Assembly: GCF_003315205.1 (NCBI RefSeq)
Contig: NZ_QNRR01000002.1
Coordinates: 528,881 to 592,880, forward strand
Reading direction: 5' to 3'
DNA length: 64,000 nt
Source: Roseimicrobium gellanilyticum
GTDB lineage: Bacteria > Verrucomicrobiota > Verrucomicrobiia > Verrucomicrobiales > Verrucomicrobiaceae
Shown: positions 12,723-48,340 of the stretch, in pieces
Numbering within the stretch: position 1 is the first letter of the stretch
Layout: the number at the start of each line of letters is the position of its first letter
Notes under the pieces: generated by a model
What the model was told of the DNA's origin: nothing
Databases searched by the model: none
Seen by the model: the letters and a program-made list of their open reading frames with translations, nothing else
Made by a program: the position numbers and the translations under genes

Positions 12723-12755
12723 TCTGCCAAAAAGTAGTCCGCCGAGCCTCGGCGG
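12714..12755 (+). repeat. Hairpin repeat of the AAAGTAGTCCGCCGAG family at a gene end
   Basis: A partial unit (GGAAAGTAGTCTGCC, 12714-12728) overlaps the sulfatase stop codon. It is followed by a full unit at 12731-12755 whose CCGCCGAG-C-CTCGGCGG core forms a hairpin. The same unit occurs as inverted pairs at 24719-24880 and 48350-48486. Confidence 0.75.
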
Positions 12756-12819: not shown

Positions 12820-12894
12820 ATTCGATGAGCCATCAATCCCTTGCGCAGCCTCCTCCCGCCCGGGAGCCGCGCTCACCCATTTCACGCTCAATTC

Positions 12895-13100
12895 AACGCT
12901 TGTTTCAACTATTATATCGGCATAAAATGGGCATGGACCCATACTCGCTCAAGGATCGTCCGGAACAGGCATCCCAGCTATCGTCACGGCGACCGCTTTC
13001 AAGAACATGCCGCAGGGTCAAAAAGACCATCTGTGGACCTCGTTGAGAATCAGTGCCCGGTTCGCAAAACGATAGTTCGTTTGGCCAATTTCTGACGTTT
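12895..13100 (+). promoter_or_regulatory. Two-block conserved upstream region, copy A
   Basis: Block 1 (12895-12926) begins AACGCTTGTTTCAA and contains a dyad TTATATCGGCATAA (12912-12925). Block 2 (13066-13100) begins AAAACGATAGTTCGTT and continues with TTCTGAC. Both recur in the same order and orientation at 46463-46632 (25/32 and 31/35 identical by eye). The region lies 110 bp before ATG 13210. It may be a promoter/operator pair or a structured leader. The remaining intergenic sequence from 12820 to 13209 has no supported gene. Confidence 0.6.
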
Positions 13101-13209
13101 TCTGATCCCCAGCGAGTTCCACAATTTGCCTCAACCGGCAGCCTCTCGTGACGGTCCAATTGTCCAAATATCACTCTCCCGCGTGATTTCCCTGCATCTG
13201 CATCACCAC

Positions 13210-16200
13210 ATGCGCTTTGCACGAGCCAGTTTTCTCTATGCTTTTTTCATCATCAGCCTCGCTGCTGGTGGAGTGGAGGTCTGCGCTGCCTCCCCGGCCA
13301 AGGTCCAGTTCAATCGTGATGTCCGACCCATCCTCTCGGACAAGTGTTTTCACTGCCATGGCTTCGACAGCAAAAAGCGTGAGGCGGGACTGCGACTGGA
13401 TGTCCGCGAGGATGCCATCAAGGACAAGGCCATCACCCCCGGAGATCCTTTGAAGAGTGAGGCTCTGGTGCGCATCCTGAGCACGGATCCGGATGAACAC
13501 ATGCCTCCGGCGAAGTCCAAGCTCGGGTCTCTCACGCCTGCGGAAGTGGACATCCTGAAGAAGTGGATTGAGCAGGGTGCGGAGTACGAGGCGCATTGGG
13601 CTTTCATTCCAGTGCAGAAGCCGGAGCTGGGAATGCCGGGCGCTGGGAGCGTTTCACCTATTGACGATATTGTGGGTAGTGGACTCGCGGAACGTGGAAT
13701 CAAGCCCCAGAAGGAGGCAACGGCAGAGACGCTGATTCGTCGCGTCAGCTTTGACCTTACTGGCCTGCCGCCATCCTCTGCGGAAGTGCTGGCGTTTAAG
13801 AAGGCCTACGCAGCGGAACCGGACAAGGCCTACGCGGCGCTCGTGGACCGTCTGCTGGCTTCTCCTCAGTTTGGAGAGCGCATGGCCGTGGACTGGCTGG
13901 ATGTCTCCCGCTACTCAGACAGCTTCGGATTCCAGGTGGATCGTGACCGTGATGTGTGGATGTGGCGCGACTGGGTGATCTCCGCCTTCAATCGGAACCT
14001 GCCTTTTGATCAATTCGCCACATGGCAGATCGCCGGTGATCTCCTGCCGGATGCGACCGATGAACAGATCCTCGCCACGGCTTTCAGTCGATTGCATCAG
14101 CAGGAGAGCGAGGGCGGCAGTGTGGAGGAGGAGTATCGCGTGGAGTACGTGGCAGATCGAGTTCAGACCTTTGCCACGGCATTCCTCGGGCTCACCTTCG
14201 AGTGCGCACGGTGCCACGACCACAAGTTCGATCCCATCTCTGTGCAGGACTACTACGGGTTGTTCTCGCTCTTTCAGAACATCGATGAAGCGGGCCTGTA
14301 TTCTTTCTTCACGTCGTCCGCTCCGACTCCGGCGCTATCGCTGGTCGATGAGGCTGGAAAGAAAAAGCTTGGGGAATTGAAGGCGCGCGTCGATGACCTT
14401 GAAAAGAGAACGGCGGCACTTCGTGAATCTCGTCGCAACGCCTTCGAGGCCTGGTTGCAAACAGATGCGGCGAACACTCATGCTGGCTCCGTGCCGGGTG
14501 AACTGGGGCGCTATCGTTTTGAGACGCTGGGAAAGAAGAACACTCTGGCCAATGATCTCAAGGCCGACCAACCTGCGAAGCTCAAAGGAGAAAACATGCT
14601 GGTCCCGGGACATGCAGGGCAGGCACTGCTCTTTACGGGAGATGATGCGGTGGATCTGCCCATCGGCAATTTCCAGCGGCAGGAGCCGTTCAGCATCTCA
14701 CTGTGGATGCAGACACCGGATGTGAAGGACAGGGCGGTCGTGTTTCACCGCTCACGCGCGTGGACAGATGCGGCCAGTCGCGGGTATGAGCTGCTCATCG
14801 AGGAGGGCAGGCTGAAGTGGTCATTGATTCACTTCTGGCCGGGCAATGCCATTTCTGTACGAGCCAGGGAACCGCTGCCCGTGAAGCAGTGGACCCATGT
14901 CACGGTGAGCTATGATGGCTCCAGCCGGGCTGACGGATTGAAGCTCTATGTGAACGGCAAACACGCGGCCGTGGATGTCATCCGAGACAGCCTCACCAGG
15001 GAAATCACAGGTGGCGGTGGCGATAACATCGCGCTGGCAGAACGCTTCCGCGACAAGGGATTCAAGGGTGGGATGCTCGATGACTTCCGGGTTTTCGGTC
15101 GGGAGGTGGGTGCGGGGGAGGCTGCACTGCTGTATGCGGACAAAGAGGGGGGCGCAGCCGCGGAACAGGTGAGTGACAAGAGGCTGTTGCAGGAACGTTT
15201 TTTCGCCACTGCAGATGAGGAGTGGAAGAGTCACCTGGAGAACCTGAAGGTCGCTCGTGCTGAGCTGTACAAGGCCCAGGATGCAGCGAAGGAAATCATG
15301 GTGATGCGTGAGCTGCCAGAGCCGAAGACGGCGTACATCCTCTTCCGCGGTGAGTACAACCAGCGTCGCGAAGTGGTGCCGCCATCCACACCCTCGGCGG
15401 TGCCACCTTTCAGCAAGCAGCCACCGAAGAACCGGCTCGACCTCGCGAAGTGGCTCACGAGTCCGGAGAATCCGCTCTTCGCTCGAGTCACGGTGAACCG
15501 CATCTGGCAGAGTCTCTTTGGGCGTGGACTGGTGAAGACGTCGGAGGACTTTGGAAGCCAGAGTGAGCGCCCGCTTTACCCCGAGCTGCTGGACTGGCTG
15601 GCATGGCATTTCCGCGAGAGCGGTTGGGATGTGAAGCACCTGATGAAGACCATCGTCATGTCGCGCACCTATCGGCAGGACAGCTTTGGCGGTGCGCAGG
15701 TGATGGCGGATGATCCGGACAATGCCTGGCTGGCCCGTGGTCCGCGCTTCCGCCTGCCTGCGGAGATGATTCGCGACAATGCACTCGCTGCCTCCGGCCT
15801 GCTGAGGCCCAGGACGGGTGGGCCGCCCGTGCGTCCGTATGAGATGACTGAGGCCTTCAAGCCCATGAAGGCGGATGCCGGTGACGATGCCTACCGTCGC
15901 AGCCTCTACACGATCTGGCGCAGGACCAGTCCACCACCGGCCATGGTGGCCTTTGACGCTCCGCGCCGTGCGGTGTGCATCGCAAAGCGTGAACGCACCG
16001 ATTCGCCGTTACAGGCTCTCATTCTTCTGAATGGTACCCAGTATGTGGAAGCCGCCCGGGTACTTGGGGAGAAACTGCATCGAGAGGCAAAGGGCGACGT
16101 GAAACAGATGATCATCCAGGGATTCCTCACCTGCCTGAGTCGTGAACCGGATGCGAAGGAGATGGACATCCTCCAGCAACTCCACGCAGAGCAGCTCGCG

Positions 16201-16350
16201 CACTTCAAGCAACATCCCGCCGAAGCGGATGCGCTCCTGAAACAGGGGAGTGCAAAGCGTGATGCTTCCCTTCCTGCGCCCGAGGCGGCGGCCGCCACCG
16301 TGCTGGTGCAGGCCCTGATGAACCATGATGCCTGTGTGGTGAAACGATGA
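13210..16350 (+). CDS. PSCyt1-DUF1549-LamG-DUF1553 exported protein (pair 3)
   Basis: The 1046-residue product starts at ATG 13210, where a signal peptide begins; the longer upstream frame is ignored. Haem motifs are C46-F-H-C-H50 (PSCyt1) and C332-A-R-C-H336 (DUF1549). A concanavalin A-like LamG domain (about 450-640; motifs FSISLWMQTP, WTHVTVSYDG, LKLYVNGK, GMLDDFRVFGR) is inserted before DUF1553 (about 720-1000) and could bind glycan. The stop overlaps an ATG in the DUF1501 partner's frame. The promoter region carries the two-block element shared with the 46.7-kb locus. Confidence 0.9.
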   Translation: MRFARASFLYAFFIISLAAGGVEVCAASPAKVQFNRDVRPILSDKCFHCHGFDSKKREAGLRLDVREDAIKDKAITPGDPLKSEALVRILSTDPDEHMPPAKSKLGSLTPAEVDILKKWIEQGAEYEAHWAFIPVQKPELGMPGAGSVSPIDDIVGSGLAERGIKPQKEATAETLIRRVSFDLTGLPPSSAEVLAFKKAYAAEPDKAYAALVDRLLASPQFGERMAVDWLDVSRYSDSFGFQVDRDRDVWMWRDWVISAFNRNLPFDQFATWQIAGDLLPDATDEQILATAFSRLHQQESEGGSVEEEYRVEYVADRVQTFATAFLGLTFECARCHDHKFDPISVQDYYGLFSLFQNIDEAGLYSFFTSSAPTPALSLVDEAGKKKLGELKARVDDLEKRTAALRESRRNAFEAWLQTDAANTHAGSVPGELGRYRFETLGKKNTLANDLKADQPAKLKGENMLVPGHAGQALLFTGDDAVDLPIGNFQRQEPFSISLWMQTPDVKDRAVVFHRSRAWTDAASRGYELLIEEGRLKWSLIHFWPGNAISVRAREPLPVKQWTHVTVSYDGSSRADGLKLYVNGKHAAVDVIRDSLTREITGGGGDNIALAERFRDKGFKGGMLDDFRVFGREVGAGEAALLYADKEGGAAAEQVSDKRLLQERFFATADEEWKSHLENLKVARAELYKAQDAAKEIMVMRELPEPKTAYILFRGEYNQRREVVPPSTPSAVPPFSKQPPKNRLDLAKWLTSPENPLFARVTVNRIWQSLFGRGLVKTSEDFGSQSERPLYPELLDWLAWHFRESGWDVKHLMKTIVMSRTYRQDSFGGAQVMADDPDNAWLARGPRFRLPAEMIRDNALAASGLLRPRTGGPPVRPYEMTEAFKPMKADAGDDAYRRSLYTIWRRTSPPPAMVAFDAPRRAVCIAKRERTDSPLQALILLNGTQYVEAARVLGEKLHREAKGDVKQMIIQGFLTCLSREPDAKEMDILQQLHAEQLAHFKQHPAEADALLKQGSAKRDASLPAPEAAAATVLVQALMNHDACVVKR

Positions 16351-46063: not shown

Positions 46064-46289
46064 GCAACGAAAGCCACCCGTGATCATGATCCGAGTATCA
46101 CTGCCACAACCGACCGGGATCAGCATCTCGCGCGAGTATGGCTGGCTTGGGAAGGCGGGTCTTTCTGCGTAAGGACAGCAAACCACTGGTGGTCATGCCT
46201 CGTGAATTACACCCACAATATCAGGATGATCCTGGACGGGCACATCGACACAATCGCGCGCACATGGACACTCCCGATTCGGAAACTCA

Positions 46290-46371
46290 GTCGCGAAGCG
46301 ACGACCGCATCTTAGCCTGGCCTTTCAAGGCCGGGTTGTCCCCAGAAACCCATCGTGTCGCGGAGCGACAC
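46290..46371. repeat. Cluster of three hairpins
   Basis: GTCGCGAAGCGAC (46290-46302), CCTGGCCTTTCAAGGCCGGG (46316-46335) and GTGTCGCGGAGCGACAC (46355-46371) are perfect or near-perfect stems in a row. The first and third share the TCGCG-AGCGA core. Confidence 0.65.
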
Positions 46372-46462
46372 CCGAACCCGTGGCGATCACGAACCCGTGT
46401 CCGCCTACCGGTTCGCACTTCGTTTTGCATGCCATTGTTGGCGACCGTACCACGAACAACTT

Positions 46463-46632
46463 AACGCTTGTTTCAATAATTGTATCGATGCAAATTCGGT
46501 GTGAACAAACTCGTCCCTCTCATCATGGCATGTGCCACCAACGATGCGGCCCCCAAACAGCCTCGCACCGGTCCTTGATACCCAACGCACTGCTCCAAAA
46601 ACGATAGTTCGTTCTGCCAAATTCTGACTTTT
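46463..46632 (+). promoter_or_regulatory. Two-block conserved upstream region, copy B
   Basis: Block 1 (46463-46494) begins AACGCTTGTTTCAA and has dyad TTGTATCGATGCAA (46480-46493). Block 2 (46598-46632) begins AAAACGATAGTTCGTT. The dyad keeps its symmetry with changed outer bases compared with copy A (TTG/CAA here, TTA/TAA there). It lies 65 bp before the fucose-isomerase-like gene. Confidence 0.6.
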
Positions 46633-46696
46633 CGGCCCCTTCGTCTCTCACTCGCCGCCTCCTTCTCCAAGCCCCATCTTCTAACCTTCCTCTGCC

Positions 46697-48340
46697 ATGC
46701 CCAAAGCAAGCCGCAAAAAGCCATTCGCATCCCTCCGTCCCGCCGTGCAACTCATCGCCAGCGGTGACCTCCGTCTCTCCGCAAACCAGACCTGCTGGCC
46801 GGCGCAGCATGCCATGGAGACGGCACTGGGCGAAGCGCTCGCCGCAGAGGGATTCGATCTCGTCCGCTCACATCCGTACAAGGAAGATGAGAAGCACGGC
46901 TTCATCGCCAGCCAGCGCGAGGGCATCGAAGTCTTCCGCAGCATCGATCCCGACGCGCCGCTCATTGTGGCAGAGGCGGTGTGGCAGTATTCGCACCATG
47001 TGCTGGCAGGACTCACCACCCATCGTGGCCCCATCCTCACCGTGGCGAATTGGTCCGGCCAGTGGCCTGGTCTCGTGGGCATGCTGAATCTCAATGGCTC
47101 CCTCACCAAGGCCGGAGTGCGCTACTCCACGCTGTGGAGCTTGGATTTCACGGACGCCTTCTTCAAGAGCAAGCTGCGCCAGTGGCTGAAGACTGGCAAG
47201 GTGACGCATGACCTCAGCCATGTGAAGAAACTGGACAAGGTAAAGGTGCCCGCGCAATCCGCAAAACTGGGCGCCCACCTCGGGCAGGAATTGCGCTCTC
47301 AGAAGGCCATCCTCGGCATCTTCGATGAAGGTTGCATGGGCATGTTCAACGCCATCATCCCGGACCACGCCTTGCACGCGTGTGGTGTCTTCAAGGAACG
47401 CCTCAGCCAGTCCTCACTCTTCTACGAAACCATGAAGACTCCAGATGACGAGGCCCATGCGGTGCTCGCGTGGCTGGAGAAGAAGGGAATGAAATTCCAC
47501 TTCGGCAAGGATCACGCCACCGAGCTCACGCGCGAGCAGGTGCTCCTGCAGTGCAAGATGTACATCGCCGCCCTGCGCATCGCCGATGATTTCGGCTGTG
47601 ACTCCATTGGCATCCAGTACCAGCAGGGGCTCAAGGATCTGCTTCCCGCGAGTGACCTCGTGGAAGGCACGCTCAACAATGCCGACCGACCCCCGGTCAC
47701 CAGCCGCGATGGTACCCATGTCCTCTACAAGGGTGAGCCTCTCGTCCATTTCAATGAGGTGGACGAATGCGCGGGCCTCGATGGCTTGATGACCTGCCGC
47801 GTGCATCAGGCACTCGGGCAGCCCGTGGAATCCACGCTGCACGACGTGCGCTGGGGTGAGCAGTATGGCGATGACTACGTGTGGGTGCTGCTCATCAGTG
47901 GCGCCGCGCCACCGGCGCACTTCATCAAGGGATGGAAGGGAGCCGATGGCCACCGCCAGCCCACGATGTATTTCCCCAATGGCGGCAGCACCTTGCGTGG
48001 TGTCTCGAAGCCGGGCGAGATCGTGTGGTCACGCATCTACGTGGAGAACGAAACCCTGCACATGGACATCGGCCGTGGTGGTGTGGTGGAGCTCCCGAAG
48101 GCCGAAACCGAACGACGCTGGCAGGCCACCACGCCGCAGTGGCCCATCATGCATGCGGTGACCTATGGCGTGAGCCGGGATCAACTCATGGCCAAGCACA
48201 AGGCCAATCACATTCAGGTGGCCTATGCCAATGATGCGAAGGCAGCGGACCATTGCCTTTTCACCAAGGCCGCCTTCGCGCGCGAACTCGGCATCAAGGT
48301 GAACGTGTGCGGCTCGCGGACCCGTACCAAGGGATGGTGA
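46697..48340 (+). CDS. L-fucose/L-arabinose-isomerase-like protein (COG2407 type)
   Basis: The 547-residue cytoplasmic protein resembles the fucose isomerase group. The N-terminal Rossmann-like domain includes [17 protein letters not shown], the middle has [12 protein letters not shown], and the C-terminal domain has [22 protein letters not shown]. It could isomerise an aldose such as L-fucose. Gene context here is single: nothing else of a fucose route is adjacent, and the next gene is on the other strand. The start follows a C/T-rich leader. Its promoter region carries the two-block element also found at 12.9-13.1 kb. Confidence 0.7.

Follow-up and report, generated by a model that had tools for sequence, protein, structure and literature searches.

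Mobile promoters consist of promoter-bearing DNA that is propagated upstream of genes, and REP/REPIN sequences are palindromic hairpins with a conserved 5′ tetranucleotide and a linked RAYT gene. Sites of the ops type make RNA polymerase pause and recruit a cognate NusG paralog. The ops element of RfaH, 12 nt in length, is described with 16 sites in E. coli MG1655 (PMC7819879) and as being read in the non-template strand in the form of a small loop (PMC5995543), and TTNTTT is described as the sequence read by the NusG protein of B. subtilis (PMC7819879). The Pcauto motif of Clostridium autoethanogenum is presented as serving many genes, some of them essential, with a TetR-family activator; it is placed no more than 50 nt upstream of mapped starts, consists of an interspaced (A/T)G repeat and has been assigned to hundreds of starts (PMC6873888). 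Control sites have mostly been studied where relatives share them. The sites considered here, which we call block 2, were found in a single genome, and the relatives that we searched lack them.

We analysed a stretch of 64,000 nt of the Roseimicrobium gellanilyticum contig NZ_QNRR01000002.1, hereafter the window, together with the genome to which it belongs (G000; 7.93 Mb in 32 contigs) and the only genome of the same genus among those compared (G001).

Two blocks at two loci of the window

A sequence-only reading of the window had pointed to two blocks of similar sequence that recur upstream of a DUF1549-LamG gene (locus L034) and of a fucose-isomerase-like gene (locus L035). We find both blocks where that reading had located them, in the same order and orientation (Table 1), and we reproduce the identities between the two copies (25/32 for block 1 and 31/35 for block 2) as well as the spacing between the blocks, which is 139 bp at the first locus versus 103 bp at the second.

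Table 1. Features of the two window loci, with positions in the window, and the gaps at the further loci flanked by conserved genes where G000 is longer than G001.
Feature	Position	Strand	Remarks
Block 1, DUF1549-LamG locus	12892..12931	+	promoter-like, -35-like TTGTTT, -10-like TAAAAT; score 46.5
Block 2, DUF1549-LamG locus (L034)	13067..13102	+	36 bp: exact 19-base core, T-rich tail; score 51.6
Intergenic stretch, L034	12723..13160	.	438 bp; no alignable counterpart in G001 (167 bp there)
Gene downstream of L034 block 2	13210..16350	+	Pfam: PSCyt1, PSCyt2 (DUF1549), Laminin_G_3, PSD1 (DUF1553)
Block 1, fucose-isomerase-like locus	46460..46499	+	score 38.4
Block 2, fucose-isomerase-like locus (L035)	46599..46634	+	exact 15-base start, CTGCC variant at core end; score 48.2
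Stretch between conserved genes, L035	46055..46672	.	618 bp; 40 bp in G001
Gene downstream of L035 block 2	46697..48340	+	Pfam: L-fucose isomerase C-terminal domain
Gap, L039			339 bp in G000, 28 bp in G001
Gap, L044			292 bp in G000, 24 bp in G001
Gap, L046			227 bp in G000, 40 bp in G001
Gap, L050			443 bp in G000, 141 bp in G001
Gap, L056			294 bp in G000, 68 bp in G001

When up to three mismatches were allowed, the 16-base start of block 2 matched two sites of the window, both exactly, against 0.18 expected from shuffled sequences. The corresponding search with the 14-base start of block 1 gave three window matches versus 3.26 expected, which is not significant, and a block 1 13-mer with up to two mismatches was not enriched in the whole genome (94 matches versus 96 for the reversed control). 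Unlike these loose short patterns of block 1, the full-length blocks are significant in the window. Indeed, with weight matrices from whose training the two window sites had been left out, the only other site listed for block 2 scored 5.3 and is the same place reversed, and the reversed control reached at most 3.8. For block 1, the next distinct site of the window scored 12.9, and the reversed control peaked at 14.4 within the window and, over the 1.18 Mb of contig C2, at 18.5. A strict sigma-70 scan left block 1 uncalled at both window loci.

In G000 as a whole, the block 1 sequence YTTGTTTAACAA occurs five times, four of these being block 1 copies, and it is absent from the genomes G001, G002 and G012. 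Contig C2 holds a weaker block 1-like site, with a score of 23.6, just over the control maximum. In addition, a sequence closely resembling block 1 of the fucose-isomerase-like locus is found around position 1513 of L003, on contig C13 of G000, with no block 2 nearby; the gene that follows is presumably GxxExxY-like.

Other repeats were seen in the course of this analysis. A 97-bp repeat at window positions 46288-46384 has five strong further copies in G000 (contigs C8 and C15) and 15 matches in G001, and its minus strand overlaps a match to the Acido-Lenti-1 RNA family that scores 34.4 bits versus the 37 bits of the gathering threshold. The palindromic repeat around GTCCGCCGAGCCTCGGCGG at positions 12733-12755, which is terminator-like on the minus strand, belongs to a family dispersed in both G000 and G001. 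Finally, contig C2 carries further dispersed intergenic repeat families, such as TGTAGCCATTTTCGT and TGTCCGGTCAGGAGA, whose conserved surroundings are long.

The block 2 family and its setting

Searching G000 with the 15-mer AAACGATAGTTCGTT yielded 23 exact copies and six with one mismatch, that is, about 29 block 2 sites, whereas the reversed AAACGATAGTTCGTT control gave four matches in total at up to two mismatches. Block 2 is made up of the 19-base core AAACGATAGTTCGTTTGGC, a GGCC-like step and two T tracts, which amount to about 36 shared positions; in the tail the T tracts are kept and the remaining bases vary (column counts over 30 sites, including L060, later dropped). Outside these positions, no 9-mer at a consistent place was common to five or more loci. 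A search with a 20-mer, allowing up to three mismatches, returned 28 places in G000, each with at most one mismatch within the first 15 bases. Five two-mismatch matches, namely L060 and places on contigs C2, C9, C10 and C14, were excluded from the 29; L060 is still counted in the tallies of stop codons, 9-mers and some downstream genes, and L089 was read for orientation and left unscored. The copies at L041, L043 and L048 have a poor tail and lie inside genes or antisense.

The next gene is co-oriented with block 2 at 21 of the 25 intergenic copies that could be scored, for which the one-sided chance of at least 21 in sense is 0.00046; at the other four (L043, L044, L055 and L058) it lies on the opposite strand. 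Next genes were chosen by their conservation with G001, and at L031, L035, L036, L038 and L051 short or weakly matched opposite-strand ORFs were skipped by judgement. The scored set leaves aside L053 and L059, where the next gene is ambiguous, and the intragenic copies at L041 and L048, both of which are in sense to the host gene. With 21 of 25 copies pointing at the next gene, the family is thus neither scattered at random positions nor a repeat unrelated to gene starts.

What precedes block 2 was sorted by eye into several contexts. At ten of the 29 sites (L031, L033, L034, L035, L038, L039, L046, L050, L052 and L056) block 1 starts 134-229 bp before block 2, and a doubtful block 1 is seen at L047. 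In the ten block 1-block 2 leaders measured, the C content (0.32-0.51) exceeds the G content (0.04-0.25). A second promoter-like sequence, the class B element RGGTGTANAGTCAC, is present in exact form at six of the 29 sites, where it starts 30-71 bp upstream of block 2, and in degraded form at L055. In all five intercistronic copies (L037, L040, L042, L054 and L057) block 2 begins at the stop codon of the upstream co-directional gene, and some of these gaps offer little room for a separate promoter. Five further intergenic copies (L032, L043, L045, L047 and L058) have no clear upstream element of these kinds.

The class B element was considered as a private partner of block 2 and rejected: block 2 follows each of its six exact copies in G000, yet four exact copies in G001 stand before other genes without block 2. 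When one mismatch is allowed, neither G000 nor G001 contains more matches to the element than to its reversed control. The sequence RGGTGTANAGTCAC, or a one-mismatch form of it, also stands directly before a short gene at L240, L242, L236 (G001) and L247 (G000); we take this gene to be helix-turn-helix-like, and the gene then following at L240, L242 and L247 is presumably a primase-like gene of a mobile element. RGGTGTANAGTCAC may be an operator of mobile islands.

The proteins encoded downstream were scanned at 25 of the 29 sites, L043, L051, L055 and L058 being left out; for L044 and L049 the protein came from a more distant gene. The families found are Mur ligase, PSCyt1/PSCyt2, sulfatase, H+-pyrophosphatase, ribosomal protein L19, ABC transporter, MacB, HEAT repeats, a weak match to squalene-hopene cyclase, FAD enzyme/halogenase, the RecF/RecN/SMC type, acyl-CoA dehydrogenase, GDSL esterase, glycosyltransferase 9, LysM, homocysteine methyltransferase of the methionine synthase type, LolA, FecR, YCII, DUF1552 and the fucose isomerase domain; cytochromes are also among the targets. 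The proteins scanned at L053 and L059 matched no family. No common pathway was seen among the scanned downstream genes.

The distribution of block 2 was followed with an 18-base pattern, one mismatch being allowed, in 57 genomes comprising G000 and 56 relatives from the same genus, family and order. This pattern gave 30 matches in G000, a single one in one other genome and none in the rest, and its reversed control gave a single match in each of three of the 57 genomes; the lone match, in one of the 55 relatives beyond G001, is chance-like. G001 itself has no match at up to one mismatch in 18 bases, and two three-mismatch places with the 20-mer. Across 84,980 species, among which records of the species itself may be absent, the exact 18-base core produced five stray single matches, none of them with the tail (by eye). 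As the copies lie in one genome and none in its sequenced relatives, these presumed gene-control sites seem to have arisen within a single lineage. A viral, a plasmid and a phage origin were each considered and rejected: a core pattern with two free letters led to 20 viral contigs, many of them one phage sequence and none with a T-rich tail (by eye), a plasmid collection gave no match, and a phage collection gave one 21-base match, from one phage that appears under two records. An analogous motif was looked for in 0.8 Mb of G001, where the six over-represented 14-mers inspected, out of 41 listed, proved to be repeats in one long gene or short intergenic repeats.

Gain in one lineage and possible function

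A counterpart in G001 was located for 28 of the 29 block 2 loci (L039 weakly at first), and these site-free counterparts offer a before-and-after view of a new cis signal taking over unrelated genes. Seven loci flanked by conserved genes are longer in G000 by 187-578 bp (Table 1), and L052 spans about 1.2 kb in G000 versus about 0.5 kb in G001; G000 is shorter at L043 (155 versus 749 bp), L058 (120 versus 417 bp) and L036 (about 1.1 versus 3.4 kb). At nine loci the downstream side alone aligned with the G001 sequence that was compared, and at eight the two genomes align across the site itself. One of these, L048, has an in-frame insertion of 36 bp in a glycosyltransferase gene, the aligned start of which is the first core base, and at L045 about 35 bp are inserted. 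The net change is 0, as counted by hand, in the HEAT-repeat gene at L041, and the distance from stop to start differs by +9 bp at L040, +17 bp at L042, -2 bp at L054 and +29 bp at L057. Furthermore, L032 has diverged from G001 across the site, and at L031 alignment with G001 covers the tail half of the motif and leaves out the core half (by eye). Given this mixture of insertions and in-place changes, a gain of block 2 in this lineage is well supported, though one achieved by more than one route. At the block 2 loci one can ask whether the motif spread through insertion or through selected mutations. At L037 (contig C2, near 934,650), asnB lies directly upstream of the gene for ribosomal protein L19, and G001 has a different sequence there.

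From the two window loci, the sequence-only reading had proposed a binding site or a structured RNA, with a dyad in block 1 that keeps its pairing. Across the family this pairing fails, since at least five of the six pairs are retained in four of the nine copies scored (L031 and L047 being left out). The possible hairpin of block 2, taken over 29 copies, has nine broken pair-cells, one wobble and no compensated pair; between its arms AAACGA and TCGTTT, the outer and third pairs are broken in five and four of the copies, respectively, and the other four pairs are kept, one as a wobble. Single-sequence folds vary from copy to copy, and no Rfam family was found at block 2 in 12 loci, nor any at gathering score in the window. 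It is the letters that are conserved, not a fold, and with no covariation a folded RNA is unsupported. What stands of the earlier proposal is that the sequences are non-random, lie upstream of genes and resemble a cis-acting signal.

Our preferred explanation, which we hold tentatively and with less than even confidence, is that block 2 is a cis-acting leader element that was born in this lineage and is read as sequence in the transcribed leader by a putative trans factor. Block 2 would have spread or arisen after the split from the same-genus relative, accompanied at about one third of its sites by the private, promoter-like block 1 and often located in newly gained intergenic DNA. We infer that the sites are transcribed and that a factor reads them, acting in elongation or on the leader: the 19-base core would be read linearly during transcription, in the exposed non-template strand or in the nascent leader RNA, and the putative factor would control the following gene through pausing, antitermination or translation. 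A leader signal fits the asymmetric conservation, the sense orientation, the lack of covariation and the place of block 2, which is at a stop codon or behind two promoter-like kinds of sequence. Against it stand the four opposite-strand copies together with the two ambiguous ones (L053 and L059), the poorly tailed intragenic or antisense copies at L041, L043 and L048, the strict sigma-70 scan without a call of block 1, the failure to find a NusG or RfaH relative in about 1.48 Mb of G000, and the core dyad, which fits a duplex operator equally. We therefore place the leader signal first and treat a duplex operator or promoter, and then a mobile repeat, as serious rivals.

A bolder version, which we regard as distinctly improbable, is that a new leader-recognition system, for example a NusG paralog paired with an ops-like site, was born in one lineage and took over about 29 unrelated units, housekeeping ones included, with a private promoter block spreading at one third of them. 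A tblastn search with E. coli NusG and RfaH, run without a positive control, gave no match at an E-value cutoff of 1, either in G000 (about 1.48 Mb including overlaps, roughly one fifth of the genome) or in 0.8 Mb of G001. If the trans factor were found, it would be a new factor of transcription or elongation, private to this lineage, whose target code can be read.

It is possible, although we lean against it, that block 2 is instead the duplex operator of a dimeric regulator gained in the lineage, or a private promoter motif to which such a regulator binds. The core dyad AAACGA-N4-TCGTTT has a size usual for TetR-type operators and 5 bp of it are kept in most copies, though without covariation. 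The upstream position and the orientation suit an operator as well, and unrelated targets have a parallel in Pcauto, which serves many unrelated genes. A duplex operator or promoter thus explains the dyad and the targets nearly as well as a leader signal. It accords less well with the asymmetric conservation over 36 bp with two T tracts, with the 15 bases identical in 23 of the 29 copies, which is stiff for an operator, and with the location of block 2 downstream of promoter-like DNA, at the variable distances from block 1 given above. In the intercistronic copies, moreover, no -10-like sequence is visible behind block 2 (by eye, to position 45).

We consider it unlikely that block 2 is a mobile or repeat element of about 36 bp without a regulatory role, whose orientation and place reflect tolerated insertions. 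Such an element explains L048 best, and the insertion at L045, the seven lengthened loci and the presence of several other dispersed repeat families in the genome are in its favour; however, it does not explain the orientation of 21 of 25 copies in sense or the in-place gains, the net changes at L041, L040, L042, L054 and L057 being other than 36 bp. In addition, the T tracts are kept in the tail, the 20-mer search found no copy with two or three mismatches in the first 15 bases, and no transposase is linked to the family, the RAYT gene near L059 being flanked by a repeat of its own.

Very unlikely is a role of the core as the target of a base-pairing small RNA made from L043. This locus is the one antisense copy between two co-directional genes, without the tail, and its 19 bases are complementary to the sense cores, but no promoter or terminator was seen around it (by eye) and an exact match of 15-19 bases in 23 targets exceeds what pairing needs. 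Hardly tenable, finally, is the conventional regulon, with a structured leader, that would join sugar isomerisation to a surface complex and that the sequence-only reading had drawn from the blocks common to the two window genes: these genes account for two of the 29 sites, the other scanned genes are unrelated, so that the gene list already contradicts it, and neither block covaries.

Comparison with known systems

Like REP/REPIN sequences, block 2 is short, dispersed, species-private and found mostly between genes; unlike them, it is not palindromic over its length and it points at genes. An origin from a REP/RAYT system was rejected, as no conserved tetranucleotide precedes the core and the inverted repeat on either side of the RAYT gene near L059 is a different one (by eye). 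That gene, a RAYT-like Y1 transposase gene at positions 81-1421 of L059, lies directly upstream of the block 2 copy. With mobile promoters the family has in common that promoter-bearing DNA was gained before unrelated genes in one lineage. It differs from them in that only the two ends, block 1 and block 2, are alike and the DNA between them is unalignable, and in that many copies are without block 1. A mobile promoter with homology throughout its recent copies was rejected, as the intervening DNA could not be aligned across the 11 sequences tried, one of which (L047) is doubtful. Pcauto is likewise a motif that serves many genes and is named from one lineage, but block 2 stands behind promoter-like DNA.

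The T tracts of block 2 recall the TTNTTT sequence of B. subtilis NusG. As an actual ops site, block 2 was rejected: when GGCGGTAGCGTG is set against it in the best register found by eye, six of 12 bases agree, which is not significant. Block 2 is also longer than ops, with its 19-base core within 36 bp, its targets include single housekeeping genes, and it is private to one genome among those searched. By analogy, the ops element of RfaH nevertheless appears to offer the nearest known logic for block 2, that of a short exact sequence, in sense orientation in the leaders of unlinked units, which would act on the gene that follows.
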